A stretch of DNA of 29,830 bases, taken from positions 1 to 29,830 of the IMG/VR virus record IMGVR_UViG_3300048037_000104. The stretch is one strand, 5' to 3'. Positions 1,454 to 24,200 of this stretch are shown piece by piece (the stretch's first letter is position 1; each line of letters starts with the position of its first letter). Position numbers and translations under genes: made by a program. The DNA is from a virus. The notes beneath the pieces were generated by a model that saw only the letters and a list, made by a program, of their open reading frames with translations, was not told the DNA's origin and made no database searches.

Positions 1454-1454
1454 G

Positions 1455-6500: not shown

Positions 6501-9500
6501 CGATTGTAACTACAACACCTGTACCCTCTGTGTGGAAATTATAATTTCTTGCTTCTCCAGAACTGTTCTCTGTGACTATGATGTCAAAGAATGTATCCTG
6601 ATATGATGATGTGACTGTACCTGATAGTACACCTGAAGATGTATTTAAAGTAAGTCCTGTGCCAGATATATCATCACCCGACAGAGTATATGATTCTCCG
6701 TTATTAAATGTCTCGTTAGCATAACTCTTGAACTCATCAACACCTACGTCTAAACTGACAGCTCCATTGTGAGCAAATCCATCACCACCTATTTTACCTG
6801 TGGTTACTAGATTACCTGTACCAGTTCCTTGTACAGTCTTGATATACAGTGGATGACTAGATCCTGCTGTAGTATCGAATACTAGAATGTCACCTATAGT
6901 AGCATTGATTCCTGCGTCGTCACCACTCTGTCCTGCTGAGGAATTTGTCTGAACAGTAATAGTACCGTACATATTGTTGTGAGCAGTACACTGATAGTAG
7001 TATACGCCAGGTGTTACGCCAGTTGTAACCCACTTGACAGTACCAGATGCTGATGCTCCACCACCTGTATATGTTCCCTGTGATACCTGATTACTTGAAC
7101 CAGTTCCCTGTACAGTCTTGAAAACAGTTGGGTGACTGCTACCCGCATTCATATTAAAGTTTATTGTATCACCAACCTGACATACAATAGCAGGGTCGTT
7201 ACCACTTACAGATCCATTCCTATCAGTACCAGCTACAATATAGTCCTGACTACCACTAGCAGTGACAGCAAAGTTATATGTATTGGTTACAAGGTTTACA
7301 TTCTGTTCTGTTATAGTATAGTTGCTACTACCAGACGCTGTTACGTTCCAGTATCTTTTGGCAGTACCACCTGATCCAGTAAGCGAAATGGTACCATACA
7401 TGTCATTGTGAGCACTACATTGATAGTAATAGTTACCAGCTGTGACTCCTGTTGTATCCCAGTAGATTCTTCCATTAGTGACACCTTGTCCCCCTGATTG
7501 ACTTAAAGATCCATTGTAGAACCATGTAACGGTCTTAGAGATGTATTGTGTGAACAGTCCCCTAACCTTACTTATTAACGCACCTGTCTGACTATAATCA
7601 AAGTCAACCCCTGTATCTACAGGTATCTGATTTATAGCACGACCTGTATGTCCTGCTTCTTCTGAGTCTAACTCGGCAAATAATGTGACGTTACCAAACG
7701 TAGGTCCGTCAGATCCCTCGTGTGTATCAGATATAATACAACCATAGTTATTACTTCCACCAGCTACCTCATTACTTGTACCACTATTGACCACAGTGAT
7801 CTCGATATAGTTGTTAGCAGCAGACTGTCCTGTGATGCTATACCAGTCGTCATTAGATATTTCTTTGATGTTAAGACCACCCACTGATAGTGAGGATGCT
7901 CCGATTCTCATCTGTAATTTTTTACCAATCTTGTTCAGGAAGGCACTAGAATCTATTGCGTTATAGTATATCTTAAGTATATTACTACCTGAACTAACAG
8001 CAAACGGGTTGGTAGGTAACTTGTATTCATGTGCTGTGTTGCTTGGATACGCTGTAGTACTGACAGCAGCAAAGTTGCCAGGATCACCTGACCCTCTTAT
8101 CCAGTTCTTACATAAGACTGGTAGTGTACCTGTGTTGAGGTTATAGTTGTTCGCTGCGATAAACTGACATACTACACCACATACAATAGGACCTGAGAAT
8201 GATGTACCTTGTATATTATCATAGTTTGATACAGATGAATAAGGTGTATTGGTAGTCCAGTCATACTGTGGTGTAGTTATGTGTTGACCTGGTGCTGTGA
8301 CTGTTACACCTGAACCATAGTTAGAGAAGTCTGCCCACCTGTCATTATAGTCTGTAGCACCTACAGAGATAGACGCGATATTTACATCAACTGTGTTGAC
8401 ATCTCCATCTGAATATCCTGCTGATCTAGTTCCTGCTTGATATCTACCCTGTAGAGGTCCTAAGAAAGCATTACTGGATGATTTGAATCCGTTACCCGCT
8501 GATCTAACGAGTACAATATTAGCATCTACTACGTCTTTCTCTGTCTCGTCATATAATTCTACGTCAAATCCTGCGTCAGTTCCTGCTTCGTTTAACTCAA
8601 TGTATGGGAAAGAACCACTAGGTTGAGTAGAACCAAAGGATGCGTTGATAACTGCGGGTCTAGTATTACCTTTATAGTTGGCATTACCACTGTCATTATG
8701 GTTGATAACTGCCTGATATGCGTTCATGATACCTGATAGTGTTCCACCACCAGCTGAACTAAAACACTTCAGAGCATACAATTTTACCTTATGTGCGACA
8801 CCATTCTTAATACCACCAATCAAGTTGGCACACCATGTACCGTGTGAGTTGTCATCTTCATTACTGTTTGCTACACCGTTAACAGTATATCCTGAACTGT
8901 AACCTGGCACCTCATACACTCTGTATGACTGTTGCTCAGATAAAGCGTTAAGGTCAGCGTTGTTTGTTACGTCAAATAATTCTGGATGTAAACCTACTCC
9001 AGATCCTGTTGGTCTCGAAGCTCCTCTAATACCAGTATCAAGTACATACACGTCAACACCGTCAGCCTCTTCCGTAGTGTTGTATACTCCATTTAAGAAA
9101 CTCCTACTTTGCTTTGATATACGGTCTAGGTGCCAGAAATCATGGATTGCTATACCACCATAACGTAGTGGACTGTCATTATAAGCACCATAGTCTGAGT
9201 TAGATACGTTGTACCAGTACAGCACAGATGCTGTGACACTATCCACTTCGATACGAGTATAAGCACCTGAAGAACCAGGTGTTCCTGCTGTTGTTACCTT
9301 GTAGGTATACTGTACACCGTCATTGTGTGTACCGTCAGGTGTCAAAGAGAATGCTATCCTGTGACCTGTATTGGATGAGTCACTCTGGTCAAAGGTATAT
9401 GTACCACCTTGTACAAATCCACTGTAGGTTGCGATACGACTGTATACACCACCCTGAGTTGATGCGAACTGAAACCTTTGATTACCACTATAGTTTGCTA

Positions 9501-9852
9501 CCTTTACATATATTGTTCCACCACCACTACCAGTTATGATCCTTGTATTTCTTGTTCCTGCTACTTCTTCTGTATTGTCTTTTATTGTATCTCCTAAAAA
9601 CTCTGCTACTGCTACTTCACCACCCTCTACTGGATCTATTTTAAATTCTTTATCATATGTCGCACCATGAACGTACGCCAACTTCCTGATCTCATCTATA
9701 GATGATTGGTCTTCAGAAGGTGCTGTAAACTGGATAGTTCTAAATGAAGGGAAAGATCTTACAAATTCTAAATAACTATGCTGACCCATTATTAGTGCTT
9801 GAGCACCATCAAGAGTCATAGAACTTGCTACCTTTACTAAAAGGGTTGCCAT
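3598..9852 (-). CDS. Giant virion protein with subtilisin-like protease, cupredoxin-like and Ig/FN3 domains
   Basis: This is a 2084-residue modular structural protein. An apparently complete S8 peptidase domain spans about 265-556: Asp in VYVLDTGI (D272), His in NSHGTW (H337), oxyanion Asn in SAGNG (N454) and Ser in QGTSFSGP (S551). Cupredoxin-like modules follow or surround it at about 146-222 (ligands lost), 772-826 (C-terminal half), 870-967 (H907, C955, H958, M961), 980-1025 (N-terminal half) and 1508-1640. A putative-Ig (He_PIG-like) segment lies at 1050-1110, six Ig-like domains with YQWQ and YRC motifs at about 1115-1879, and FN3-like beta domains from 1885 to the end. It starts behind a perfect late promoter and is coupled to gp13, so it is probably a neck- or tail-associated fibre. 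Protease activity and target are unknown; processing of itself or of host surface proteins are both possible. Confidence 0.88.
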   Translation of the reverse strand: MATLLVKVASSMTLDGAQALIMGQHSYLEFVRSFPSFRTIQFTAPSEDQSSIDEIRKLAYVHGATYDKEFKIDPVEGGEVAVAEFLGDTIKDNTEEVAGTRNTRIITGSGGGTIYVKVANYSGNQRFQFASTQGGVYSRIATYSGFVQGGTYTFDQSDSSNTGHRIAFSLTPDGTHNDGVQYTYKVTTAGTPGSSGAYTRIEVDSVTASVLYWYNVSNSDYGAYNDSPLRYGGIAIHDFWHLDRISKQSRSFLNGVYNTTEEADGVDVYVLDTGIRGASRPTGSGVGLHPELFDVTNNADLNALSEQQSYRVYEVPGYSSGYTVNGVANSNEDDNSHGTWCANLIGGIKNGVAHKVKLYALKCFSSAGGGTLSGIMNAYQAVINHNDSGNANYKGNTRPAVINASFGSTQPSGSFPYIELNEAGTDAGFDVELYDETEKDVVDANIVLVRSAGNGFKSSSNAFLGPLQGRYQAGTRSAGYSDGDVNTVDVNIASISVGATDYNDRWADFSNYGSGVTVTAPGQHITTPQYDWTTNTPYSSVSNYDNIQGTSFSGPIVCGVVCQFIAANNYNLNTGTLPVLCKNWIRGSGDPGNFAAVSTTAYPSNTAHEYKLPTNPFAVSSGSNILKIYYNAIDSSAFLNKIGKKLQMRIGASSLSVGGLNIKEISNDDWYSITGQSAANNYIEITVVNSGTSNEVAGGSNNYGCIISDTHEGSDGPTFGNVTLFAELDSEEAGHTGRAINQIPVDTGVDFDYSQTGALISKVRGLFTQYISKTVTWFYNGSLSQSGGQGVTNGRIYWDTTGVTAGNYYYQCSAHNDMYGTISLTGSGGTAKRYWNVTASGSSNYTITEQNVNLVTNTYNFAVTASGSQDYIVAGTDRNGSVSGNDPAIVCQVGDTINFNMNAGSSHPTVFKTVQGTGSSNQVSQGTYTGGGASASGTVKWVTTGVTPGVYYYQCTAHNNMYGTITVQTNSSAGQSGDDAGINATIGDILVFDTTAGSSHPLYIKTVQGTGTGNLVTTGKIGGDGFAHNGAVSLDVGVDEFKSYANETFNNGESYTLSGDDISGTGLTLNTSSGVLSGTVTSSYQDTFFDIIVTENSSGEARNYNFHTEGTGVVVTIGDQPSDSTIEAGAGTNATFGPLNASVSDSSTITYQWQYSTGGAWTSISSLSGHSGETTETLTVDDQYAFNGWQYRCVLGSNTAAADTTSNSATLTVTRVVTISSQPQAQSAISPAAATFNISAATADGASITYAWDKSEDNTVWHQIPGATSSSYTTTATTYDTGGVPPASFDADNGDYFRCRVNATGASEVTSNSALLSVTRSITVDTQPQGTTGAVGGTAQFSVAASISDGDSADINYQWQLSLDDGNNFSTIGGANSATYTTPTLTAQFDEYQYRVLLSAAGANNIFTNAAILQVETVAVSVVSNPDDSIIDEGQTTSFTAAGTVQTQQITALLNSSFGVGNWTTPSGGGASAKTETASDPELYNSIWSNHAPSVDYQWQRKDGGGTVAVTVGVDNISGQATGVFYFDGVEKPNATEFERGETYIFDQSDSSNANYNTQEHPLMFSTGVDGDHNGHGHYMMGITYKLDGVTKTMAEYVSGFGSATTKTIEWIVPPNAAGTLYYWCHYHTGQGNSLLTTEPYTDISGATSPTYNTGTATYAADNADRYRCKLSAVGADADVFTDAALLTVYRTHQISAQPVNATGNEGGTSSFTVAGTTSSGSHTYQWSKSDNGVDYNTIPGAVSATYTTPALVFADDNDDRYKCTLSLVGAENDLTSTFAVQTVLRVITISQQPQPQTVIEGQSATYSITAAITSGTINYQWQKSVDSGGNWANINGATSASYTTVTQPFPTLNNEYRCVLSNANAISVTSDSATITVNESEFVDSPASMSVDIDGTTNLTFNRQPTFTSGAFVSQYAGSAHAASYWLIKRVADNVTVYDTATITVPDLSGGDTGNLTTFTVPAGTLDFQITYQVQAKFKDNAGLVSNYSSPVQFTTPVVDQPEIQTITPAFNPTVNTVSPAIKPGYGHNSTDWQFSQAETFNSIVHQSLGNSTNLLSYTLPGDVTLLPTTTYYVRVRFNVDTV
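4216..6510 (-). repeat. Array of six Ig-like domains
   Basis: Within the 2084-residue protein, residues 1115-1879 hold six diverged repeats of roughly 90-100 residues. Each opens with a strand like VTISSQPQ or ITISQQPQ, has YQWQKS/YQWQRK near the middle, a segment GATSxSYTT, then YRC(K/R/V)LS and ends with a strand such as SATLTVTR. These are hallmarks of phage Ig-like folds. The fourth copy is about 270 residues long because it carries two insertions. Residue boundaries are estimated by eye. Confidence 0.8.
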
Positions 9853-9881
9853 TGAATATTAGTCAGTATTATCCTCTTTTG

Positions 9882-9889
9882 TATTTATA
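9882..9889 (-). promoter_or_regulatory. Perfect T4-type late promoter TATAAATA
   Basis: The minus strand carries an exact TATAAATA 30 bases before the ATG of the giant subtilase-containing gene, in the 43-base divergent gap. The predicted start of transcription near 9876 leaves a leader of about 24 bases. This would drive the giant gene and the coupled gp13, gp14, gp15 and gp16. It sits only seven bases upstream of the opposing plus-strand gene, so the two transcription units cannot be regulated wholly independently. Confidence 0.7.
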
Positions 9890-9895
9890 GAACTC

Positions 9896-10183
9896 ATGGC
9901 TGGACTTAGAGACAGAGAAGCACCAACAGGTGAATATAGACTCAGAGAACACCTCTGGAGTAGAACTGAAGCAAGATTTGATGGAAGTTCAGACACTATT
10001 CCATTTGACGTTGGCGACAAATATGACGACAGACCTATAATTTCTATAGGCATAACAAAAAACATCTACGGTAAAAGATACTATCTCATTGTTGAAGGAG
10101 ATAAAACCCATGCCCGTAGACGTTTAGAATTTGATGAGAAGCATGACTTGATATCAAGTAAGTTCCTCAAGTTTATAGATTAA
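9896..10183 (+). CDS. Unknown 95-residue protein, the only plus-strand gene
   Basis: I do not recognise this protein. It is a soluble, highly charged sequence with an Arg/Asp/Glu-rich N-terminal half (LRDREAPTGEYRLREHLWSR) and a beta-alpha looking C-terminal half (RPIISIGITKNIYGKRYYLIVEGD, quoted in part by position 46-70). The composition is that of a normal globular protein, while the overlapping minus-strand frame at 9859-10065 is Ser/Leu-rich and looks like a shadow. Its stop codon abuts the stop of the convergent gene at 10184. No Shine-Dalgarno sequence is evident; TATTAT at 9867-9872 could serve as a sigma70-like -10 box but there is no good -35 box. Opposite orientation suggests expression at a different time from the late genes. 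Confidence 0.6.
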   Translation: MAGLRDREAPTGEYRLREHLWSRTEARFDGSSDTIPFDVGDKYDDRPIISIGITKNIYGKRYYLIVEGDKTHARRRLEFDEKHDLISSKFLKFID

Positions 10184-10384
10184 TTATTTAACCTTGGCAG
10201 GTGTAGGGGGTGCTTCTGTTGCCTCCTCTTTGTCCTGCGTTGCTAATCTAAGACCTTCTATTGCTCCTTGTAGACGCAGTAGTTGGTCTTCTCTTGTTTT
10301 AAGGGCATCTTTAATTTCTGCCACTTCTGCTTTTACCTTGCTCTGTTGCTCAGTAAAGTCTGTAATCATTTCGTCAATAGTCAT
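10184..10384 (-). CDS. Small coiled-coil protein, last gene of the oxygenase run
   Basis: A 66-residue protein that is almost entirely helical: residues 5-52 show heptad-like hydrophobic spacing (MITDFTEQQSKVKAEVAEIK, then LLRLQGAIEGLRLATQ), followed by a flexible Ala/Pro/Lys tail. The start overlaps the stop of the upstream 101-residue gene in an ATGA arrangement. Size and coiled-coil nature recall T4 gp57A, the tail-fibre trimerisation chaperone, but the sequence similarity is only generic and I would not name it so. The RLQGAIEGL segment resembles RLEGACEAL in its upstream neighbour, so the two may be related. Confidence 0.7.
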   Translation of the reverse strand: MTIDEMITDFTEQQSKVKAEVAEIKDALKTREDQLLRLQGAIEGLRLATQDKEEATEAPPTPAKVK

Positions 10385-10686
10385 GCTGTAGTTGGTTCAG
10401 TACGTTTAATTTTAGATTCAGCACCGATAACTACGGTGCGTACAATGTCGAGTGCTTCACAAGCACCCTCCAAACGATTCACTTTTGTACGTGCATCGTT
10501 AAGGTCAGTTAGGTCTATACGAGTCATAAGACTAGAGTTCTTATCGAGCTCCTCTTCTTTCTCTTTGACATCATCTCTTGCTTCGGTTAGCTGAGAAACG
10601 AAGTCTTCCCATACCGCATCGAAAGTCCACTCTTTAGTTTCATTTTCAACGGTACCCATCCCTGCTGTTTCTGGTGCGTCAGACAT
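10381..10686 (-). CDS. Small acidic coiled-coil protein
   Basis: A 101-residue acidic protein, not recognised. Residues 22-90 are predicted helical with a strongly charged coiled-coil stretch (TEARDDVKEKEEELDKN) and a second helix containing VNRLEGACEALDIVRTVV. That second helix resembles the RLQGAIEGL helix of the next gene. The start ATGTCTGA contains the stop of the upstream oxygenase (8-base overlap) and its own stop overlaps the next start by 4 bases, so it is part of the same coupled unit. A scaffold or chaperone role is possible but unsupported by any motif. Confidence 0.7.
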   Translation of the reverse strand: MSDAPETAGMGTVENETKEWTFDAVWEDFVSQLTEARDDVKEKEEELDKNSSLMTRIDLTDLNDARTKVNRLEGACEALDIVRTVVIGAESKIKRTEPTTA

Positions 10687-11296
10687 AATTTTTTACTTCA
10701 TCTTGTATATCTTGCTGTGCGAGAGCAAAAGGTGTGGCGAGATAAGGACGTGTGTCATACTTCAGATCTTTATGTAGACCATCAGCATAAACATACTGCA
10801 TAAAAGCATTGATATGTTCTTTGCCTGTATACTTTTCTCTCCAGTGTGGAATGTTTCCACTGTATATTACCACATCACCTGGTTCTAAGTCAATAGAAAG
10901 AGTCTGACCTTCCCATAAAAAATTTAGATCCCACTTGATGTCACGAGCAATAGACAGGTTAACTGCCAACTCTGAGGATCGTCGATCAGTATGCCTAACC
11001 AACTCACTTCCTTCAGTATATATGCGACCATAAGAATAGGTCGGTTCGATACTTGTCTTGAGTATTTCCTCCACTTGAGGTTTCAAATGTAGACCCAATG
11101 CTTCAAAGCACAAAGGTGAATACCAAGAAAAAGTATTAGGAACAGTGGGGTCATTATAACCCTCATTGCTACCCATGGCAAGTAGGGCATCCCTCATCAA
11201 TCTAAACTCGGTGTACAAGTAATCGACTAATGGATCAGGCACTGCCTTCTTCCATACTCTAATTATCGGTTTGTATTTTGTAGTTACGTCTGTCAT
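10679..11296 (-). CDS. Putative Fe(II)/2OG oxygenase, HxD type
   Basis: From the ATG at 11296 this gives 205 residues. The C-terminal half is a double-stranded beta-helix pattern: metal ligands H102 and D104 in LVRHTDRRSSELAVNLSI, then LEPGDVVIYSGNIPHW with distal H151, followed by strand INAFMQYVYA. This is the arrangement of the prolyl-4-hydroxylase-like superfamily, whose members hydroxylate proteins or small molecules using Fe(II), O2 and 2-oxoglutarate. An alternative GTG at 11326 would add ten residues but overlap the upstream gene even more; I chose the ATG. The 38-base overlap with the upstream JmjC-like gene is the longest in the run. Substrate is unknown. Confidence 0.75.
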   Translation of the reverse strand: MTDVTTKYKPIIRVWKKAVPDPLVDYLYTEFRLMRDALLAMGSNEGYNDPTVPNTFSWYSPLCFEALGLHLKPQVEEILKTSIEPTYSYGRIYTEGSELVRHTDRRSSELAVNLSIARDIKWDLNFLWEGQTLSIDLEPGDVVIYSGNIPHWREKYTGKEHINAFMQYVYADGLHKDLKYDTRPYLATPFALAQQDIQDEVKNYV

Positions 11297-11951
11297 AGAA
11301 CTCTGGATTGAGTACAGTCGGCACACAAGGAATACTCATTGATAACCTTGTTTTATTTGGTAAAGCACAATGATATGCTCTATCAGGTATATAGAGAAGA
11401 TCGCCAGGTTTTAATATCCCTTCCCATTCAACCTCCATTATATCATAGTTTATTGGTTTGTCATTATGACATTTAAGTAATGATGATTGTTTGTTCTTAT
11501 ATACTTTCCATGGTGTCTCTCCAACACACTGAACTATAAAATTAGAGAAGTGATCACAGTGTGTCTTGAATGATGGTGAGGTACCTTTAGATCCATACAC
11601 ATGTATATCTACATTCACATTTAGAGATCTCTCTATCTCTATACACAGGTCTTGTGTCCATCTATTCATCTTACTGTACCCAGTAATTACAAAACTTTCA
11701 CCACCTTGTATGTGTTCGTATATTGTGTTCTTATCCTGACATGGTACAGGTGACCAGAATGGTTTGTACTGTTCTAGATGTTTCTTATTACCATCCTTAT
11801 TAATTAGTTCCCAGTACAAATCATCACGGGTAAGGCATCTCTCTACCTCTTTCCATGATAGGTACTCAGTTGGTTTGTCTAAGAACTGCGGTACGTGTAC
11901 TACACCGTCATCGCAGATTAGATCACGCGACGCGAAGAAACGGCTTAACAC
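11259..11951 (-). CDS. JmjC/cupin-like Fe(II)/2OG oxygenase
   Basis: This 230-residue protein shows the JmjC (cupin_4-like) signature: H131 and D133 in SFKTHCDHFSNFIVQCVG, then TPWKVY, then ILKPGDLLYIPDRAYHCALP with distal H194, and a following basic strand TRLSMSIPC. In this superfamily such proteins hydroxylate side chains of ribosomal proteins, histones or other proteins, or small molecules. The only in-frame start near the upstream stop is GTG at 11951, which gives a 29-base overlap with the previous gene; the next Met is far inside at residue 95, so an alternative start codon is required. Context suggests it acts alongside the other oxygenases; the target is unknown. Confidence 0.75.
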   Translation of the reverse strand: MLSRFFASRDLICDDGVVHVPQFLDKPTEYLSWKEVERCLTRDDLYWELINKDGNKKHLEQYKPFWSPVPCQDKNTIYEHIQGGESFVITGYSKMNRWTQDLCIEIERSLNVNVDIHVYGSKGTSPSFKTHCDHFSNFIVQCVGETPWKVYKNKQSSLLKCHNDKPINYDIMEVEWEGILKPGDLLYIPDRAYHCALPNKTRLSMSIPCVPTVLNPEFYDRRNYKIQTDN

Positions 11952-12543
11952 TTTCTTGAATTTTTCTTGCTACTATGTTGATTGTGATTGCTAACCTAGC
12001 ATCATGATGTTGAGGACACGAACTAGCATGGTAGTGCTTACCATCAAAAACAAAAAGCTTGTTCTTTTCGGGATGGCATTGATACTTGATTGTATACTTC
12101 TCGCTCTCCTTCTTCTCTTCAAATACGACTGTCGGACCATCGGAATTGTTTACGTAATAAAGGCATGTGTAGTGTTCGACCAGTGATGACTCAGGAAAGT
12201 CAACATGTGGTTGATTGTGTAGTAGATGTTCTTCTCTAAATGTAGGGAAGTTTAATCCACATCTAAGTCTAGATAGATACCACTCGTCAAATTTTAGATC
12301 AAGGGCATCAATAATGTAGTGATAAAAGAAACTAAAGTCACCATACCAACTACTCATGTTACCATCTCTATAGGGAGTATGGTGCATACCTGGTTGACTC
12401 CTGTAGTAGTCAGGTACCTCTGATCTTTCTTTGGGTGATACAGTTACATCATCTAACCAGAACCATGGGAACTCGTTGGATGTCATTTTATCATGTAACT
12501 CATTTGCCAATGAGATTGGCAAAAAGTTTTTAATCTCTCTCAT
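11923..12543 (-). CDS. Fe(II)/2OG oxygenase, prolyl-hydroxylase-like
   Basis: This 206-residue protein has the clearest 2OG oxygenase set of the island: H113-V-D115 in NQPHVDFPESS, a beta strand LYYVNNSDGPTVVFEE, then NKLFVFDGKHYHASS with distal H172, and R183 in DARLAITINI, which is at the place of the 2-oxoglutarate-binding Arg. It therefore looks catalytically complete. The N-terminus REIKNFLPISLANELHDKM resembles the opening helix of phage oxygenases. The PHVDFP motif also occurs in the gene at 13100-13906, so these two may be paralogues. The start overlaps the upstream stop by 4 bases (ATGA). Confidence 0.85.
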   Translation of the reverse strand: MREIKNFLPISLANELHDKMTSNEFPWFWLDDVTVSPKERSEVPDYYRSQPGMHHTPYRDGNMSSWYGDFSFFYHYIIDALDLKFDEWYLSRLRCGLNFPTFREEHLLHNQPHVDFPESSLVEHYTCLYYVNNSDGPTVVFEEKKESEKYTIKYQCHPEKNKLFVFDGKHYHASSCPQHHDARLAITINIVARKIQESVKPFLRVA

Positions 12544-13100
12544 CTTATATTGAATGATATTGATATTCTATCTTCATCAGATAGATTCGCTTTCACGTGA
12601 TGTTCTTGCCAAGCAGGAAAAATAAGTAATCTATTTTTCACGGGTGCATAGCACCATTCAGCATTACTATATCTAGTTGGGTTTGGTGCGACTGTTCCCA
12701 GAGCATACCCACCTGACCTAGTAAAACATATGTCACCTGATCTCTCAGGAGATGACACATAGAACACACCAGATAGTCTTGCTTCTGGGTGTACGTGTAC
12801 TTGATTGTAGGAATACTTCGGATTGATATTGATCCAAAGATTTTCTATCCAACGATCACCTTTAGGTATACCCAAATCTTTCGCTATGTTGTGTGACTCT
12901 TTGACGATATACAATACAAGTTCAGACAATGGTGTGTTACCGAACTCTTTATAATCTTCAGACTGCCACCCACCAACGTTAGATATAACTCTGCCAGGAT
13001 TTTCTTTCATACATGAGTAGCACCAGTATTTCATACTGTCTACATCAAGATCAAGATCAAAACCCCAGATAGGTGTGGAGAATATTTCGTCTAGAAACAT
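12540..13100 (-). CDS. Putative 2OG-Fe(II) oxygenase, TIGR02466-like (HxH type)
   Basis: This 186-residue protein begins with IFSTPIWGFDLDLD, the typical opening of the TIGR02466/PF13759 group found in marine phages. The core follows: VHVHPEARLSGVFYVSSP (H102, H104), SGDICF, then KNRLLIFPAWQEHHV (H167 and H168) and RISISFN with R178. In this group the classical HxD is replaced by HxH, so the exact metal ligands are less certain. The family is annotated as putative oxygenase without a demonstrated substrate as far as I know. It starts one base inside the previous stop, in a tightly packed order with the other oxygenases. Confidence 0.82.
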   Translation of the reverse strand: MFLDEIFSTPIWGFDLDLDVDSMKYWCYSCMKENPGRVISNVGGWQSEDYKEFGNTPLSELVLYIVKESHNIAKDLGIPKGDRWIENLWININPKYSYNQVHVHPEARLSGVFYVSSPERSGDICFTRSGGYALGTVAPNPTRYSNAEWCYAPVKNRLLIFPAWQEHHVKANLSDEDRISISFNIR

Positions 13101-13906
13101 TAAACAGGAACTTCTTGTGATTTAAAGACCTTTGCTAATGATTTGTATTTGAAACCAAAGCAATGAGACCATCTCCATTCTACACTATCTGCCACAAAAG
13201 GGCAATGTGGTAAGTTACCATTATAGATTGTCATCGTTCCATGCTTGACAGGAGCTGATGCTATCTTCCTAAATCCCCAGTGGAATGCTTGCTTACTGCT
13301 GAGATTCTGGAAGCCGTCTGTATGATTTTTTCCGTCTCCAACCCAATCGTGCCATTCTTGATACCGTTGGTGACGTGAATCAAGTTGGAAATCGTACCGT
13401 CCTTCAGACACCTCTCCTTTGTAGTCGTAAATGTCAGTTGTTGTTTCTCCTTCTTCATGTTCTGTTAACCATAAGTTTCCTATCCATCCCTCATCATCAG
13501 GAAAATCTACATGTGGGATGTATGAATTTACTAGAGGACGACACTCGCCCTTGAAATATATATTACCCCATTCCGATAGACGTTCATCTATCAATTCTAA
13601 CTCAGGACCTTGATGAAAGTGTTCTCTAATAACAAACTCTCTTACTGCCTCACATAGGGGTTGTGTAACCCAATATGGTAGGTGGTGCACCATGAAAGGA
13701 TTGTGATCCCAGTCTTCATCATTGTTGTTAGGGTCAACTATAGGATAAGAAGATGCTATCTTTTTGAATAATCCAAGACCACCTTCTTTAAAGATATCTT
13801 CTACTACCCAATACTTACTATAGTTCTTATACTTCCACTCACTAACTGGTTTGAAGATAGGTTTTGTTTCAGTGTATACTCTTTTTGAGATAGGAAGTCT
13901 AATCAT
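13100..13906 (-). CDS. Putative Fe(II)/2OG oxygenase with insertion
   Basis: This protein has 268 residues. A metal-binding HxD pair is seen in YIPHVDFPDDEG (H132, D134), followed by GNLWL, and a distal half GTMTIYNGNLPHCPFV (H234) with R245 in SVEWRWSHCF at the place of the 2OG-binding Arg. Between the halves lies a long charged, aromatic-rich segment (about 150-215, with RYQEWHDWVGDG) that is absent from the 206-residue relative at 11923-12543; it may form a substrate lid. The N-terminal 70 residues are unrecognised. The start ATGATTAG contains the stop of the upstream gene. Confidence 0.72.
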   Translation of the reverse strand: MIRLPISKRVYTETKPIFKPVSEWKYKNYSKYWVVEDIFKEGGLGLFKKIASSYPIVDPNNNDEDWDHNPFMVHHLPYWVTQPLCEAVREFVIREHFHQGPELELIDERLSEWGNIYFKGECRPLVNSYIPHVDFPDDEGWIGNLWLTEHEEGETTTDIYDYKGEVSEGRYDFQLDSRHQRYQEWHDWVGDGKNHTDGFQNLSSKQAFHWGFRKIASAPVKHGTMTIYNGNLPHCPFVADSVEWRWSHCFGFKYKSLAKVFKSQEVPV

Positions 13907-14507
13907 AACCTTGATAATTAAATGACATTGCTATACGAGGACCTACGGTGCTCTCGTCTACTCTATGTCTCACCCACGATGGGAAGAGAACATATTCAAA
14001 TTGTTCAGCAGGGAACTCACTTGCTATAGTATGTATCCCCTTCATCATAGCGTATGGTTGGTTACGTAGAATGTAATCATTAGGGTTACAGAATTTTATA
14101 TTACTAGATCCTTTTGGTTTTCTAAAATAGTATACACATGATATCTGACAGTTACCCCACCATCCATCATTGTGACTGTGCTCCACTGTGGTGTCTCCTG
14201 CGAAGTGCTTGTTCGCCCATCCATCTCTACATCTGATATCTGCCATCTTCTTATATCCTAGAGTATATACCCAGTATTCTTTCACAGCAAATAGTAATGG
14301 TTTCATCAACCACTGGAGTTCTTCTTTCAGATGTATCTTCATCTCATCAGGACCTGTAGATAAACCTGACTCACCTTCAAAGTCACCTAACTTTCTATCA
14401 AGAAAGATACGACTCAGCATAGTCTCAGTAGCAGCATCATCATACTCAGGTGGTACTATTCTGCCCTTAACTATAGGTACAGAAAACAGGGGGTACTCAT
14501 CACTCAT
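13899..14507 (-). CDS. Putative 2OG-Fe(II) oxygenase, TIGR02466-like (HxH type)
   Basis: This 202-residue protein opens with YPLFSVPIVKGRI, the family start. The core reads TVEHSHNDGWWGNCQISCVY (H110, H112, D114), SSNIKFCNP, then EYVLFPSWVRHRVDES (H181) and RIAMSFNY (R191). This matches the same HxH group as the 186-residue gene, but the two sequences differ strongly outside the motifs. Unlike that gene, an Asp follows at H112+2, so it may still offer a His-Asp pair to the metal. It overlaps the 265-residue gene upstream by 8 bases and the next oxygenase by 8 bases. Confidence 0.8.
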   Translation of the reverse strand: MSDEYPLFSVPIVKGRIVPPEYDDAATETMLSRIFLDRKLGDFEGESGLSTGPDEMKIHLKEELQWLMKPLLFAVKEYWVYTLGYKKMADIRCRDGWANKHFAGDTTVEHSHNDGWWGNCQISCVYYFRKPKGSSNIKFCNPNDYILRNQPYAMMKGIHTIASEFPAEQFEYVLFPSWVRHRVDESTVGPRIAMSFNYQGYD

Positions 14508-15297
14508 TCCAATACTTCTTTAATATTTTATTAGTCTTAAGTTGTCTCTGAGTTGTATTAACATTCTCAGGAAACTCATTGTACGCAGTGAATATAAACT
14601 CTTCCTCTAGTTTGTAATCTTTAGGTGTAGCTACATCAACTGACATGTCAAGATCCTCTAGCATTCTACGTGACATAGGAACATAACAGCATAGAGGTGT
14701 TCCTGCTCTAACTGTTGTGTCACCTTCCATCAGGTGCCAGAGGAGTTGGACATTGACTTCATAAGCAGTACGTGGATCGAGAATACCAGATACTGCCGAG
14801 AAGCGAGTTTCATTAACGAAAGGTACTTTTGTCTGGAGAAATACGACATCATCATCGGCTTGTACTCGCCAAGTAGTATTGATTTTTACTACTTGATCTA
14901 CTGTTCTATCCTTACTAGAATCCATCAACCATTTGGTTACATCTGTTTCATGTAGAACGACATACTCAGATGATGGAGGATTGAAAGGAGTTGTAGTGAA
15001 CAGGATTGTATGTCCGTCTCCATTGGTGTGAACTTTAAAGTCAGCAGGAGCATAGACGACATAACCTGTCCTCATAATAGAATTTATAGCAGGACAACGA
15101 CCTATAGAATTAGGATGATGTTGTTCTCCTTGTAATAGTTTTCCTACAGGACACTTACTTAGTCTTTCTCTATAGTCATCTCTCTCTTCTTTCACCCACT
15201 TCCTATCAAGATCTGCTGCCTTGGTGATAGGGTGTAGTGTGTGTACCGCAGGGTGTAAACTAAAGAACCTTGCTTTTGGTTTCTTTCTCTTAAACAT
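14500..15297 (-). CDS. Unrecognised 265-residue protein next to the halogenases
   Basis: I do not firmly recognise this protein. It is basic at the N-terminus (MFKRKKPKARFFSLHP), has a Cys-Pro motif (GRCPAINSIMRTGYVVYAPADFKV, residues 67-89 by position), a beta-rich middle, and a strand-turn motif RAGTPLCCYVPMSRR (197-211). The GY-x-x-P-x-D and GTP-x-x-x-x-x-P elements faintly recall a conserved protein family of unknown function (DUF6065) that I associate with halogenase neighbourhoods, but this is from memory and untested. Its start codon contains the stop of the halogenase at 15290, so it is likely made in step with it. It could be a partner or substrate-binding protein of the halogenase; that is inference. 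Confidence 0.7.
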   Translation of the reverse strand: MFKRKKPKARFFSLHPAVHTLHPITKAADLDRKWVKEERDDYRERLSKCPVGKLLQGEQHHPNSIGRCPAINSIMRTGYVVYAPADFKVHTNGDGHTILFTTTPFNPPSSEYVVLHETDVTKWLMDSSKDRTVDQVVKINTTWRVQADDDVVFLQTKVPFVNETRFSAVSGILDPRTAYEVNVQLLWHLMEGDTTVRAGTPLCCYVPMSRRMLEDLDMSVDVATPKDYKLEEEFIFTAYNEFPENVNTTQRQLKTNKILKKYWNE

Positions 15298-16819
15298 ATA
15301 TCCTTTGTTTCAAATACTGATAATGTGAGGGTTGGGTCTGTAAGTATTTTAGCACAGATTTTCTATAACGGAAATGTCTTTCTTTCATTTCGTTAAGATA
15401 TCCTAGTGTGAACTCTTCCCTTGCCATCTTATAGAGATAGTCTGTCTTAGATATTGGGTGATAACCTAGTCCTGCTGCTATGAATGGTAACCCACCTAGA
15501 TCTTTAGGAGCATTAGATATATTCCAACAGTGGATAAGTTCTTGATACATCCTAGGAGATCTGATCAACTTGTCAAACATCTGATCATATGATAGAGGTG
15601 ATCTGTTAGTATGGTATCTCCAATACTCTGTGTCTGTTCTAGGAGAGAGGTAGTAATGACATTCTATAAACTCTTTCATAGCTTCTAGTTCATAGGATAC
15701 AGCATGGTTGTAACCATCAATATCAATCTGTGTTATATGTCCATCTCTACGTTCAAAGCATTCTACTAACCTCAGTATATTTTCATGTGTAGTAAACAGA
15801 CCTGTAGATTCTAATGGTTCTAAGAAACCATAAGACAGACCTATACCTATGACGTTGTTACACCACCCTAGTCTTCTCTTACCATGTTTAAATTTTATAT
15901 GCTCTACGTCACCATCCCAGTCTATGTGTTGTCTAAACTCTTGCTCTGCCTGATCTTTGCTACAGAACTTACTAGAATATACATAACCTTTTCCAATGTT
16001 TTCCCATAAGGGTATAGTCCAACACCAACCATTATCCATGGCATAACCATCAGTCTGGTTAACCATCTCCTTCTCTTTGTCTTTATAAGGTACGTGTGTG
16101 ACTACAGCAGAATCGTTTGGTAGATTAGGGAACTCCATAAACTCTTGACCCATAGCTCCTTCTAGGAGCACAGATCCAAATCCACTACAGTCTATAAAAT
16201 AATCTGCCTCATAGTGATGACCTTCATCATCTACAAGTGCCTTGACGTTCTCAGCATCATCATAGAGTGTTGTTATAATTCTTGCTTTTATATGCTCTAC
16301 ACTCTGACATAAATTATCTCTTAACCACCCACCAAACTTAGTAGCATCAAAATGATATGATGTATCCCATTGCTTTTTGTAATTGCGAATGTAGATATCA
16401 TTGTCCACCATCTTGTTAGTAGATGCTAGGTAACTAACAGGGTTATAGAACTCACAGTATGTTGTGTCTGGGAATAGTTGTGGATAGGTGTAGTGTAGGT
16501 AATACCATGTTAAGAAATCACCATGAGTATAATCCATATCACCAAAGGGATATTGGAAGACATCACCTTTGTTTTGCCAGTTTGTAAATTGTATTGATAA
16601 CTTATATGTCGCATTACATTCACTCATCCAATCTTTATCTTTTACCTCTAGGCACTGTAGATAACGATTAAAATGACCAAGGGTAGACTCCCCTACACTC
16701 AATGGTTTTTGAGAAGGGTTCTCTATTAGTTTGATTTTAAAATGTGGAAATCTCTTAGCAAAGGCAGCAGCGGTCATCCATCCAGATGAACCACCACCAA
16801 GAATACAAATACTAACCAT
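15290..16819 (-). CDS. Flavin-dependent halogenase (tryptophan-halogenase family), copy 1
   Basis: The 509-residue sequence fits the family length. It has the FAD dinucleotide motif GGGSSGWMTAA (8-18), the VGEST loop (42-46), the catalytic Lys in NATYKLSIQF (K73, equivalent to PrnA K79), the halogenase signature WCWTIP (265-270) and GFLEPLESTG (331-340) containing the Glu/Ser pair equivalent to PrnA E346/S347. These enzymes use FADH2, O2 and halide to make HOCl or HOBr, which Lys activates to halogenate an aromatic ring. A cyanophage relative, VirX1 of phage Syn10, is known to iodinate many small substrates. No flavin reductase is encoded in this window, so the reduced flavin would have to come from the host. 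Native substrate unknown. Confidence 0.93.
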   Translation of the reverse strand: MVSICILGGGSSGWMTAAAFAKRFPHFKIKLIENPSQKPLSVGESTLGHFNRYLQCLEVKDKDWMSECNATYKLSIQFTNWQNKGDVFQYPFGDMDYTHGDFLTWYYLHYTYPQLFPDTTYCEFYNPVSYLASTNKMVDNDIYIRNYKKQWDTSYHFDATKFGGWLRDNLCQSVEHIKARIITTLYDDAENVKALVDDEGHHYEADYFIDCSGFGSVLLEGAMGQEFMEFPNLPNDSAVVTHVPYKDKEKEMVNQTDGYAMDNGWCWTIPLWENIGKGYVYSSKFCSKDQAEQEFRQHIDWDGDVEHIKFKHGKRRLGWCNNVIGIGLSYGFLEPLESTGLFTTHENILRLVECFERRDGHITQIDIDGYNHAVSYELEAMKEFIECHYYLSPRTDTEYWRYHTNRSPLSYDQMFDKLIRSPRMYQELIHCWNISNAPKDLGGLPFIAAGLGYHPISKTDYLYKMAREEFTLGYLNEMKERHFRYRKSVLKYLQTQPSHYQYLKQRIYV

Positions 16820-18389
16820 GTAATGAATGATGGAAATCTATACCCGCAACATCTTCATAATAGAATTCCTCTGGTGTAGGGAACGAGTCTATTAGTTTTT
16901 CGATATTTGGATCAAGTTGATATCCTGATGATAGCACTCTGAAGGAGGTCATGTCAACATTTCCTCTTCTTTCCATATAATCACATGTCCATGGTGTAAG
17001 TGGAGAATGCATGTGACCCGCACATACAAACGAATTTCCTGCTAGATTGCTGAAATTAAAATTAACTAACTCATCCATCTTCAATGGGAAGTCATCTAGT
17101 GGGTACCCACCATGTGTCTCTGCTTCTTTCTCTGCCTTGTCATCCATATAATTGATGTTCTCTGAGATATATCTCCAGTACTCACTGTCATCCTTAGTTG
17201 TCATCATGAAATGATTACCAACGAAGTGAGCAAACTGACCCATATGTTTTCTACATCTACGATTGAACTGTGCTCTGATTAGAGTATTGACTTTACTATC
17301 CTCATGCATTGACAAAGCATCTGCTAAGAATACAGCAAAGTTATGTACCGACATCAGACCATTAGATTCTAGAGGTTCTATGAATCCTGCTGACAGTCCT
17401 ATGCCAACAACGTTCTTAGTCCAGACCTTCTTAGCAATACCATTTCTCCACTCAATTAAACGTGGTTCAGATAGTAATGGTCTATCACCCAAGAACTCTT
17501 TAAACTCTGCTAGAGCATCTTCTTCTGATATAAACTTATCAGAGAAGTTATATCCTGTACCGATTCTAGTTGTAAGAGGTACATGCCACACCCAACCATT
17601 GTCTAGTGCTGTACACTGTGTATGGTTAGTCATCTCTGTTGACTTGTCTGTATATGCTGTCTTAACTGCCCATGCTTTGTTGTTGATAAGGAAGGGGAAG
17701 TCATCCCACTCAATACCCATGTATTGACCAAGTAACTGTGATCTAAATCCAGTACAGTCAACGTATAAGTCAGCAAGATAGATGTCTTTCTCACCTACAA
17801 CACTTGCTAGGTTACCATCAGTATCTTTGATACAGTCTTTAATAGTATCAACTACATGTGTCACACCACGTGGTAGACAGAAGTCTCTCTTAAGCATGTT
17901 AGCAAACTTAACTGAGTCAAGGTGATACCCTGCGTTCTTGTATCCTTTAAATGATTCAAAGTCTTCTGTTACTACTTTATTCTCTGCTATGACTCTCCAG
18001 TATGGTGTCATCCATTCAGCAAAGGATACCTCTGGATTTCCATTGGTCGCTCTGTAATGAAAGAACCACTCTAATATATCACAACTACTATTCTTAGGAG
18101 CACCACCATCCCAGAAAGGATAATGGAAATCACCATACTCACTAAAGTTTTTAAATTTTACACTGTACTTATATGTCGCTTCACACTCATCCATCCAGTT
18201 GTCTGCTAGATTTAATTCCAGTGTCCAGTCACGAAAAAATTGAGTGGTTGATTCACCCACACCAATAGTAGGTATATCATCCGACTCAATTAGAGTAATC
18301 TTCTTTTGTGGAAATGATTTAATCAGAGTAGCAGCGGTCATCCATCCTGCGGTACCGCCACCGACTATACAAATTGATTCAATTTTCAT
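16812..18389 (-). CDS. Flavin-dependent halogenase (tryptophan-halogenase family), copy 2
   Basis: The 525-residue sequence is a diverged paralogue of the following halogenase. It has GGGTAGWMTAA (10-20), GVGEST (43-48), Lys in EATYKYSVKF (K74), the signature WVWHVP (266-271, Val instead of the usual Ile), DCTGFRS (211-217) and FIEPLESNG (336-344). All residues thought necessary for halogenation are present. The C-terminal part (about 400-525) differs strongly from copy 1, and that region shapes the substrate pocket in known enzymes, so the two probably act on different substrates or positions. It is the first gene of the coupled run, with the start of copy 1 overlapping its stop by 8 bases. 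Its own start lies 10 bases after the preceding gene and has no strong Shine-Dalgarno. Confidence 0.93.
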   Translation of the reverse strand: MKIESICIVGGGTAGWMTAATLIKSFPQKKITLIESDDIPTIGVGESTTQFFRDWTLELNLADNWMDECEATYKYSVKFKNFSEYGDFHYPFWDGGAPKNSSCDILEWFFHYRATNGNPEVSFAEWMTPYWRVIAENKVVTEDFESFKGYKNAGYHLDSVKFANMLKRDFCLPRGVTHVVDTIKDCIKDTDGNLASVVGEKDIYLADLYVDCTGFRSQLLGQYMGIEWDDFPFLINNKAWAVKTAYTDKSTEMTNHTQCTALDNGWVWHVPLTTRIGTGYNFSDKFISEEDALAEFKEFLGDRPLLSEPRLIEWRNGIAKKVWTKNVVGIGLSAGFIEPLESNGLMSVHNFAVFLADALSMHEDSKVNTLIRAQFNRRCRKHMGQFAHFVGNHFMMTTKDDSEYWRYISENINYMDDKAEKEAETHGGYPLDDFPLKMDELVNFNFSNLAGNSFVCAGHMHSPLTPWTCDYMERRGNVDMTSFRVLSSGYQLDPNIEKLIDSFPTPEEFYYEDVAGIDFHHSLHG

Positions 18390-18399
18390 AATGTAAGGT

Positions 18400-18918
18400 T
18401 TATGTTCCTACGTACTTAGGTCTGTTAGTTGCGGGGTCTAATTCCCATCCTGGTTCGTAAACGGTTGCGTTTTTAAATGTTGTAACCTTTGCTCTCTTCT
18501 CAGCAGGTAGACCATTCCATGCGGGTGCTTCTTCAGTACCCATCTCAAATTCTTTTTTCCCTGCGTAGAACGTAGCATCAGCATCTGCTGTTGCTTGATT
18601 GACGATGTTTGCTTTGATCTGCGTTACATGATCCTTCCACGTGGTCGTACCATTCACCTGATCCCAATACATCATATCCATCTGGTCTTCGATGGAACCA
18701 TACTCAACTTTTCTCTTCATCTGTTGATTTCTTTCTAACCTGTCAGTGGTTGGAAAAAACTCACCATTATATAATACCCATAGGTTTGTGACAGCATCGT
18801 CATCACAAGTTACCCATCTGATAGGAGAATCATCTCCTTGATATATCTCGAACTCGTCACCAGGCTCTACAACGTCAGTGATGAATCCACGATAGTCTAC
18901 TAAACAACTTTTAGCCAT
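18400..18918 (-). CDS. Putative tail-fibre assembly protein
   Basis: This 172-residue protein contains RKVEYGSIEDQMDMMYWDQV (residues 69-88), then NGTTTW. This resembles the YPSIGDQLDMIYWDK motif that recurs in phage tail-fibre assembly (XkdW-like) proteins and in fibre-adjacent small proteins. The N-terminal 60 residues form a compact beta-type segment. It stands directly after the three adhesin-like genes and before the halogenases, and has a late-promoter-like motif 23 bases upstream. A chaperone role for the adhesins is a reasonable guess, not shown. Confidence 0.6.
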   Translation of the reverse strand: MAKSCLVDYRGFITDVVEPGDEFEIYQGDDSPIRWVTCDDDAVTNLWVLYNGEFFPTTDRLERNQQMKRKVEYGSIEDQMDMMYWDQVNGTTTWKDHVTQIKANIVNQATADADATFYAGKKEFEMGTEEAPAWNGLPAEKRAKVTTFKNATVYEPGWELDPATNRPKYVGT

Positions 18919-21215: not shown

Positions 21216-24200
21216 TTAGATAATTACCCAACTACCGCCTGATGCGATTGATATTGTATAACCACTATTGATGGTTAGAGGACCCGCAGTAAAGCATGAG
21301 TCACCATTATTTATAGTGATACTTTCAGAGATAGATTGACGGTTTCTCTTTATTATACCATATCTATCTATCCAAGTCTTGTCTCCACCAGCTCTTAGTA
21401 CGACTGATCTTTGACCACTTGATACTCCTACAGAGTTAGAGTCAATGTTTAATCCATTGTCACCCTGAACCTGTACTCTATAAGATGTTTGAGTAGTGTT
21501 GCTACCTGGTTCGTGGAAGTTCCATGTACCGTAGTCACCATCACATGAAGCAAAGGTGTAATCAGCGTTATTACGCCAGTACATGTTGTCACCTGTTGCA
21601 TAGTATGTATGTGAGTCGTTAGAGAAGTAGAATCTTCTTTGACCTTCAGCAGATGTTATCCACTCGTTAGTTGTTCTCTTCAAGTATGGAAGACCTAACG
21701 CTGTGTATCCTTGTAGTAAGTTAGCATTTAAGTTGCTGACTTCTGTAGTAGAATCAAGCTGGAATGGAGCAGTACCTTGTGCTACACGTGATCTTATTCT
21801 TCCGAAGAAGTGTACAGTACCATCATCATAACGGTACTTCATGACACGGGAGTCAGTACCATTATTTCTTCTGAAGAATGTAATGTCATCACCAGACTCA
21901 GATGCGAACGCAGCAGGAGAATTATCTCCATTGTAAGCAATACCACCACCATAGGCTCCTGATTGTCCAACGTATAGGTAACCTGTACCTTGGTTAGAAC
22001 CGTATGCTTCAAAACCACACTTATAAGAGTCACCCGCATTTGCTAAGACAACTGTGTCAGATGCCTTACCTGTAGTACCAAATCTAACAGACTCATTAGA
22101 ATCTATTGAGTAACTAGGATTAGACTGACCAATACCTATACGTCCATTTCTGAAGTATACATTGTTGTATGATAGGTATGTGCCATTGTAACCGAATGAG
22201 TTACCATCATTACCAAATCTGATATAACCTTGAGAACTACTCTGTCTACCTTTTATAGAAAGAACGTTAGTAGTTGCCTTACCTAAACTAATACCATTAC
22301 CATCAGCTAACTGTAGGATAGTTGTACCAGTGTTAGTAAAGATACCTTGGTCAGCATATAGATCCTGTACATTGATGTCACCATCTGATTCTCTACGTAC
22401 AAGTGTGTTACCAACGTTGCTAGTGTTCTGAGTATAACCATCAACATAGTGTGCATCTAGTTGTGAGTTAACACCATCGTTACCCGCATGCCATACTGTG
22501 TTGCTGTTGATAGTAACGCTACTGGACTTGATGTCCATGAGTCCGTTACCATTACTTGAGTTACCACCTGAGAACTCGAATCTTACATCATAGTCATTTG
22601 ATAGACCACCAGATCTTACATCAAACAGTGGTGTAGAAACGATTCCTGCTCTACCCATCTCAAACAGAGCACCATCTTCAGTATTGCTAAGAGCGAATAC
22701 CTGTGAAGCACCAGTTGTAAGTAGGTTAGATGAAGTAACAGTCCACTTAGAGCCAGGGTTAGGACCGAAGACTCTGATATCTTTGTTACCGTAAGCACCA
22801 ACGAAGGTTATAGAACCAGTAACAACTGTATACTTAGCGTCTACAGTAGTATCATCTGTCTCAGTGATACCGCCTGGATCAATAGTTATTGTACCGATGT
22901 TGTTTACAGCAGCGTCGTCTGCGTACAAGGTATATGTACCACCCGATGAGAGGTTACCCGCAGGGTTTGTACCAGTAGCACAGAAGAAGTTAGGAATATA
23001 TAATTGATATTTCTCTCCAGATGATACAACGTAGAAGTTGTCAGCGACAAATTTGTTTCTACCTAATAGAGTTGGTAGAGCTGGATCGCCAAGAACACCG
23101 ATTGTTCTCTGGTCATGAATGTTGTAACCTTGCTGATACCATAGACCCTGTTGGTTATCTAAGAAGTCAGCGTTAGGACCTGGTAATGTACCACGACGAG
23201 GTTCGTTAACGTCAGGAGGACCATCATTTTCTGAGTGCCATATCTTCGCCCAGTTACCATATACGTTAGCAATATCAGAGTTACCACGTAAGTATATGTT
23301 ATCTGTAGCAGAGAATGCTAATTGAGCAACAGAGTTACCAGTAGCAGTTCTTCTGAATGTTGCGACTCCGTTTCTATCTCCACCTGCGTCAGTTGGAATA
23401 CCGTTAACGTTGTTAGATCTAAGTGCTAACTGCATACCAACGTTAGCTGCTGATACTAGGTTAGCGTTAGCAGATGATGGAGCAGTTGTCTCAGCGAATA
23501 GTACGTTAGCAAAGTCAGCAGTACCAGATATAGAAATGTTATATGTGGTGTTTGCTAGACGTTGTGGATCAATAACACCTTCAACTAGGTTGGAAGCATT
23601 CTGATAGAACGCACCTTCGTTACCGTCTAGTTTATCAGCGTTAAGTTTAGAACCCGCACCTTGGTCAATGGATACTTCACCGTTGTCTGTAACAATGAAT
23701 CCACCTTCTGTCTGATCACCAAGTGCTTGTTCAGCAGTGTTCTTTCTGAATTTAGTAATACCATAGTTACCAAATACTGAACCACCAGCTTGTAATGTTG
23801 TTGGTGTAAGTTTGTTTGCCTTTCTAATGTCAATGGATGCGTTACCAAAGAATCTAGGTAGAACACCCTTACGTGCGTTTAGTGTTGCTGTCTGTGATGG
23901 AGTACCTAGTTCATTTGGAACTGTTAGTATGAAGTCTCCATTATATCCAGTACCTGGTGTAACCACAGATACACTGGTTAGGACACCGAATGCTTGTGAT
24001 GATGTTAGTGTCGATACTGTAATATCAACTGGGTGTTGTATAGTACCACCGAATAGAGGACCATCGAAGTTTAGTATGTCACCACCTAAGTATCCAGAAC
24101 CACCATCTAGTATGAGGTCAACTGATAGTGTACCTACACTGTCAGTAACGAATCTGATGATAGCACCTAGACCCGCACCAGTTGTATTGGATGCTGCTAC

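Follow-up and report, generated by a model that had tools for sequence, protein, structure and literature searches.

A putatively late, exchangeable fibre-tip cassette of T4-like cyanophages with predicted halogenating and hydroxylating enzymes

The window analysed here is a 29,830-base virus record of IMG/VR (IMGVR_UViG_3300048037_000104), a contig of a T4-like cyanomyovirus with relatives in the Kyanoviridae. Its minus strand encodes a long fibre, three Gly-rich fibre-tip proteins, an island of enzyme genes, a protein of 2084 amino acids, and then gp13, gp14, gp15 and gp16. The island contains two flavin-dependent halogenases (A and B), a protein termed U265 and six oxygenase-type proteins (OX5a, OX268, OX5b, OX206, JMJ and OX215), and we regard it, with somewhat better than even confidence, as the enzyme part of a late, exchangeable fibre-tip cassette that would halogenate and hydroxylate the receptor-binding tip. 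For cyanophages at large, the chances appear evenly balanced that they carry dedicated halogenation-plus-hydroxylation modules for tailoring their own fibre tips, with the enzyme set swapped together with the adhesin that it serves. The probable role of the enzymes is to decorate the virus where it contacts the host, and they are probably not the 'metabolic genes' as which they are usually filed. The observations behind this reading are the gene content, the gene order and its conservation, the catalytic residues, a late motif, linkage to the tip, block exchange, and the match of halogenase clades to tip type.

For a comparison across viruses, 167 loci were annotated with profiles built from the window proteins. 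The order of tip, chaperone-like protein, halogenase A/B, U265 and oxygenases is retained down to approximately 35–40% identity in dozens of viral contigs, and is thus not a product of chance. The module is found in two genome positions, either ahead of gp13 (window, S-RIM44, Sf-FR1 and Sf-FP1) or behind a different set of fibre genes elsewhere (Syn9, P-TIM40 and S-CREM1). The halogenase adjoins the Gly-rich tip in all 14 GenBank phage records that have this tip, which comprise about six independent lineages. Among 128 distinct halogenase loci, an oxygenase gene lies within 5 kb in 115, and in 85 there is a recognised gene for a fibre or tip at a distance of up to 8 kb; distant halogenase clusters without the Gly-rich tip adjoin other fibres and the tip-like families phrog_2295 and phrog_4474. 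In the halogenase tree, A, B and the phrog_2295-linked type fall into separate clades, and the label 'Gly-rich tip' requires 18 changes on this tree, compared with 45.5 when labels are shuffled (0 of 500 shuffles were as low). A megablast search of the island against GenBank phages gave no near relative.

The exchange of the cassette is seen among isolates of S-RIM44. The isolates Np_42_0711 and Sn_08_0709 share 96.6–98.1% identity across and beyond the neck genes, and their fibre genes share 71–80% identity over approximately the first two thirds, where the similarity stops. Behind the fibre, Np_42_0711 encodes tips, the chaperone-like gene, two halogenases, U265 and six oxygenases, whereas Sn_08_0709 encodes a different tip-position protein (phrog_2415), a small protein (phrog_2504) and one oxygenase; the C-terminus of the fibre, the tips and the enzymes are replaced together. 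By their hit lists, four S-RIM44 isolates have the module and four do not (the region was read in one isolate of each kind). Syn1 (neck identity, 97.1%) likewise has the short cassette, and Sf-CH11 carries a third one in the same slot, in which a different tip-position protein is accompanied by a halogenase that belongs to another subfamily and by four oxygenase-type genes. These alternatives indicate, therefore, that the tip and the tailoring enzymes move as a single block. The initial annotation, made from the window sequence, had named independent occurrence of these genes, apart from each other and from fibre genes, as grounds for abandoning its proposal; the linkage is tight and the block is swapped with the tip, so the proposal stands in this respect.

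The unit starts upstream of the island as first delimited, since a late motif precedes the three tip genes ahead of it. The motif TATAAATA, the T4 late-promoter consensus, occurs in exact form only twice in the window, both times on the coding strand (Table 1); motifs of this type are not enriched over the window as a whole, and it is their placement that counts. Of the 56 distinct related loci with halogenase and tip, 45 have the shorter ATAAATA between −300 and +60 relative to the first tip gene (approximately four expected from a background rate of 235 per 1.16 Mb). The motif holds its place at the tips although the surrounding sequence diverges, and several relatives have a further motif near the start of the chaperone-like gene. 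Judged by sequence, the tips, the chaperone-like protein, the two halogenases, U265, the six oxygenases and the small proteins probably form one late transcription unit, and the motif suggests the late expression that the initial annotation had assumed.

Both halogenases match PF04820 far above the cut-off (343 and 302 bits; cut-off, 21 bits) and contain the GxGxxG motif, a WxWxxP-type motif, and the catalytic Lys and Glu, which are conserved across relatives; their identification as flavin halogenases was correct. Halogenase B aligns over its full length with VirX1 of cyanophage Syn10 (PDB 6QGM; E 6e-133; residues 3–508 on VirX1 residues 6–527) and belongs to the VirX1 subfamily, with halogenating activity predicted; halogenase A aligns more weakly (residues 1–478 on 2–489). 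VirX1 was studied as an isolated biocatalyst with an open active site that accepts large substrates, and two papers on it (PMC8407142; PMC7948982) name neither a genome context nor a native substrate. The open site, together with the native substrate absent from these papers, fits a protein target. Syn10, the source of VirX1, and Syn9 hold the same module, with tips, a second halogenase, U265 and oxygenases. Flavin halogenases of pathways for ribosomally synthesized and post-translationally modified peptides (e.g. MibH) act on small precursor peptides in secondary metabolism; by description, they would be a precedent for a ribosomal-peptide substrate, but that substrate is not a virion protein.

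Six Fe(II)/2-oxoglutarate (2OG) oxygenases had been proposed for the island. Six oxygenase-type genes are present, and in the OX268, OX206, JMJ and OX215 families the H-x-D...H motif is 100% invariant (27–61 diverse members each). The assignment is less certain for OX5a and OX5b because these conserve H-x-H...H...R, in place of the canonical triad of two His and one carboxylate. Pfam recognises three of the six, i.e. OX5a and OX5b as PF13759 and JMJ as PF08007 (JmjC_2). The H-x-H...H arrangement is also present in the PDB relatives 3bvc and 2rg4 of PF13759 proteins, and might represent a three-His site, or else a protein that is no 2OG oxygenase in the usual sense. The PDB relatives of JMJ are YxbC, NO66, YcfD and MINA, and JmjC_2 relatives with known activity are protein hydroxylases; JMJ matches YcfD/RoxA, NO66 and MINA53, which act on ribosomal proteins, and retains the metal-binding H-x-D...H, but these matches are weak (E 1e-4 to 5e-3) and YxbC (1vrb) is closer. 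Structure modelling among the oxygenases covered OX215, whose AlphaFold model (predicted local distance difference test score, pLDDT, 88) has the double-stranded beta-helix fold and was matched by Foldseek to prolyl-4-hydroxylases, PHD2 and HygX. The invariant H-x-D...H led us to reject the PHROG labels 'minor coat protein' (OX268), 'endonuclease V' (OX206) and 'ferrochelatase' (OX215), the last of which is additionally excluded by the prolyl-4-hydroxylase-type fold. From motif conservation, OX268 and OX206 are putative oxygenases; PDB profile searches with the OX268, OX206 and OX215 families gave nothing usable, and hhalign comparisons between these families were weak.

U265, at first an unrecognised protein, is phrog_7084, and is predicted to have a dUTPase-like (beta-clip) fold: its model (pLDDT 90) has dUTPases as the closest solved folds (Foldseek probability, 1.0; E 3e-4; template-modelling score by target, 0.43–0.59). 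Inspection of its conserved columns gave no dUTPase catalytic motifs 1, 2, 4 or 5, and only D174 in GILDP resembles motif 3. A function as dUTPase was rejected because the other catalytic motifs are missing, and a function as flavin reductase for the halogenases was dropped because the predicted fold is dUTPase-like. Relatives of U265 connect weakly to DUF6065. No cellular origin was found among 84,980 genomes, which yielded only two hits. One is a short contig of a Prochlorococcus single-cell genome that carries the phage module and whose protein is 88% identical to U265, which makes Prochlorococcus or a close relative the likely host; the other is a P-TIM40-like phage contig in a Nonlabens assembly. 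The latter (NZ_RMVE01000006.1, 188 kb, Nonlabens xiamenensis) resembles a P-TIM40-like cyanophage genome and is probably contamination. Two other loci (L117 and L126) are very large clusters with a JmjC gene, about nine PF13759-type or related genes, three to four tandem U265 copies and one halogenase.

From this arrangement we infer a mechanism in which the late promoter drives the three tips, the putative chaperone, the two halogenases, U265 and the six oxygenases as one overlapping run. Late in infection, the oxygenases (JmjC_2 and prolyl-hydroxylase-like types) would hydroxylate side chains of newly made tip proteins, and the halogenases would halogenate tip side chains before or during fibre assembly, so that the receptor-binding surface might acquire chemistry beyond the 20 amino acids. 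The tips are rich in residues open to halogenation or hydroxylation (8–13 Tyr, 2–4 Trp, 5–6 His and 7–11 Asn per approximately 186 residues), some of them invariant, and the first candidate sites would be the conserved Y134, H164, H187, N159 and N178 in the Gly-rich domain of tip paralogue 1. U265 may act as a non-catalytic partner, e.g. in binding of substrate or complex, and the benefit may be host recognition or fibre stability. Adhesins of the T4-type gp38 are Gly-rich and have a fibre chaperone. The tips resemble these in that they are small, rich in Gly and encoded behind the long fibre gene, and the Syn9 relative is named gp38; we know of no halogenase or oxygenase that accompanies gp38 adhesins in T4-like coliphages.

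Several points weigh against tip modification. The loci are mutually related, so the locus counts are not independent. In loci retrieved with the halogenase query only, an oxygenase is nearby in 57 of 70 and a recognised fibre or tip gene in 34 of 70, many of these loci being short pieces. Mirror-tree distances correlate between tip and enzymes at 0.59–0.70, no better than between tip and gp13 (0.64), i.e. the enzymes are tightly co-inherited, with nothing specific for the tip. Some cyanophage halogenases of other subfamilies are located away from fibre genes, and among proteins with the prolyl-hydroxylase-like fold there are also small-molecule enzymes such as HygX. The initial annotation had proposed a late surface or virion-tailoring system acting on fibre proteins, glycans or a secreted molecule; linkage to the tips, the joint swap and the late motif support the system in part and favour the fibre tip among these substrates, whereas halogenation and hydroxylation of the tip are deduced rather than observed.

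A secondary-metabolite pathway, in which a halogenated and hydroxylated small molecule (antibiotic or toxin) would protect the infected cell, survives best among the alternatives and is nevertheless unlikely. Antibiotic protection has been proposed for cyanophage prnA (PMC2984593; PMC9964418), and the S-SSM6a cluster has been suggested to make a halogenated metabolite or to decorate the capsule (PMC7824862). Many small aromatic molecules are substrates of VirX1 in vitro (PMC8407142), and the fold matches of OX215 include the small-molecule enzymes HygX, SnoN and MysH. However, no biosynthetic, carrier-protein, export or resistance gene was found in the window block or in six isolate loci (carrier proteins, carbamoyltransferase, methylase and PrnB-D are absent from the former and not annotated in the latter), and neither the block exchange with the tip nor a single late motif ahead of the tips would be expected of such a pathway. 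The S-SSM6a/S-SSM7 cluster (Iyer et al. 2021, PMC7824862) resembles the island in combining a halogenase with several oxygenases; it differs in its carbamoyltransferases, methylase and sugar enzymes, in a halogenase of another subfamily (27% identity) and in lacking U265. In S-SSM7 the cluster also lies between the fibre genes and gp13, and the tip reading may therefore extend to clusters of the S-SSM6a kind. No helpful literature turned up in a search for a bacterial halogenase/TonB-receptor cluster of comparable kind.

Linkage to a receptor-binding gene would equally suit modification on the receptor side, i.e. of host envelope proteins, glycans or fibre sugars, e.g. against superinfection or re-adsorption to debris, and some distant halogenase loci adjoin glycosyltransferase genes (L118). 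The window block contains no glycosyltransferase, no export signal was seen (no search was aimed at one), and late timing, as indicated by the motif, would better suit virion assembly; we judge this explanation to be quite improbable. The current auxiliary-metabolic-gene reading, in which the oxygenases lower 2-oxoglutarate or serve DNA repair beside a halogenase that has no relation to them, is the standard one in the literature (PMC3037559; PMC9146016; PMC9602691). Drawdown of 2OG and DNA repair have been proposed for cyanophage 2OG oxygenases (PMC3037559; PMC9146016), and the functions of viral 2OG genes were stated as not specifically investigated (PMC9602691). This reading leaves unexplained six different oxygenase families in fixed order with halogenases and tips, as well as the late motif and the exchange with the tip, and we give it very little weight. 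That the slot behind the fibre is merely an exchange site, in which enzymes hitch-hike with no functional tie to the tip, would suit the at least three alternative cassettes in the slot ahead of gp13, but has the slightest chance of all, since halogenase clades follow tip type and the slot alone cannot explain a linkage that recurs, with the same module and tip type, in the second genome position (Syn9, P-TIM40 and S-CREM1).

The features of the tip–enzyme region are summarized in Table 1.

Table 1. Features of the tip–enzyme region of the window, in order of transcription.
Feature	Position	Strand	Remark
T4-type late promoter motif TATAAATA	21308–21315	−	93 bp upstream of first tip gene, inside end of long-fibre gene
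Gly-rich fibre-tip protein, paralogue 3, 250 amino acids	20463–21215	−	paralogue assigned to phrog_863-type family
Gly-rich fibre-tip protein, paralogue 2, 253 amino acids	19702–20463	−	
Gly-rich fibre-tip protein, paralogue 1, 251 amino acids	18944–19699	−	phrog_863, phrog_21412 tail fibre; Pfam Gly_rich_2 match narrowly misses cut-off
P172, phrog_1787, putative fibre chaperone	18400–18918	−	function suggested by position
Flavin-dependent halogenase A, 525 amino acids	16812–18389	−	PF04820 E 1e-89; catalytic K74, E341
Flavin-dependent halogenase B, 509 amino acids, VirX1 subfamily	15290–16819	−	PF04820 E 3e-102; K73, E337
U265, phrog_7084, predicted dUTPase-like (beta-clip) fold	14500–15297	−	structure model; weak DUF6065 link via relatives
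OX5a, PF13759 oxygenase-type, H-x-H motif	13899–14507	−	Pfam
OX268, oxygenase-type, PHROG label 'minor coat protein'	13100–13906	−	H132/D134/H234/R245 invariant
OX5b, PF13759 oxygenase-type, H-x-H motif	12540–13100	−	Pfam
OX206, oxygenase-type, PHROG label 'endonuclease V'	11923–12543	−	H113/D115/H172/R183 invariant
JMJ, JmjC_2 oxygenase	11259–11951	−	PF08007 E 8e-19; H131/D133/H194
OX215, prolyl-4-hydroxylase-like, PHROG label 'ferrochelatase'	10679–11326	−	model and motif; probable start at internal ATG 11296
CC101, small protein phrog_20247	10381–10686	−	moves with module; not in S-RIM44 isolate without module
CC66, small protein phrog_580	10184–10384	−	neck-side flank
Second exact TATAAATA	9882–9889	−	30 bp upstream of gene 3598–9852, past end of unit

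The open reading frames of the island were recovered as initially annotated, all on the minus strand, and their reported overlaps of 1–38 bases hold provided that OX215 starts at the internal ATG. The placement of the island between adhesin genes and neck operon needs amendment: the tips lie upstream, but the gene for the 2084-amino-acid protein (3598–9852, minus strand) separates the island from gp13–gp16. Both small proteins are where they had been reported, at the end of the island; CC101 travels with the module, whereas CC66 belongs to the neck-side flank because it is retained in S-RIM44 isolates without the module. The 2084-amino-acid protein has a subtilisin-like protease region (phrog_3677) and plastocyanin/azurin-like and Ig-like repeats, and S-RIM44 has no counterpart of its gene between island and gp13. 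The plus strand carries, between island and this gene, an open reading frame of 95 amino acids (9896–10183) that is retained in at least 14 related loci, probably a genuine small gene in surroundings otherwise coded on one strand; an overlapping minus-strand frame (9859–10065) is also conserved, perhaps merely as its shadow. Beyond their core domains, gp15 and gp14 (455–2789, minus strand) have extra repeat-like regions that match baseplate-wedge and tail-fibre families. No Rfam match and no tRNA were found in the window. Outside the cyanophages, a possibly related arrangement occurs in the Pelagibacter phage HTVC008M, whose halogenase gene is placed between gp16 and gp17; ahead of gp13, on the other strand, this phage encodes four 2OG oxygenases and a 'ferrochelatase'.

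The family of every single gene was known already, and the module is not peculiar to the window phage; the block itself is present in published cyanophage genomes such as that of Syn9, and the papers found do not remark on it as a unit. What is new is that the late tip-plus-enzyme cassette is defined and seen to be exchanged with the tip, that U265 is predicted to have a dUTPase-like fold, and that three oxygenase labels are corrected. Many cyanophage papers tally halogenase (prnA) and 2OG-oxygenase genes as auxiliary metabolic genes, for which roles in the nitrogen metabolism of the host, in DNA repair or in defence against antibiotics have been proposed. If our reading is true, a large class of ocean-virus genes would shift from host metabolism to host recognition, as virion-maturation genes, and the module would represent a viral protein-halogenation system and provide a natural substrate for VirX1. 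As biocatalysts, too, enzymes with halogenating and hydroxylating activity on a repetitive Gly-rich protein would be interesting. The S-RIM44 isolates with and without the module offer a ready-made comparison, and halogenation of the tip, if shown, would deserve a kind of its own beyond phage-encoded tailoring of virion proteins.

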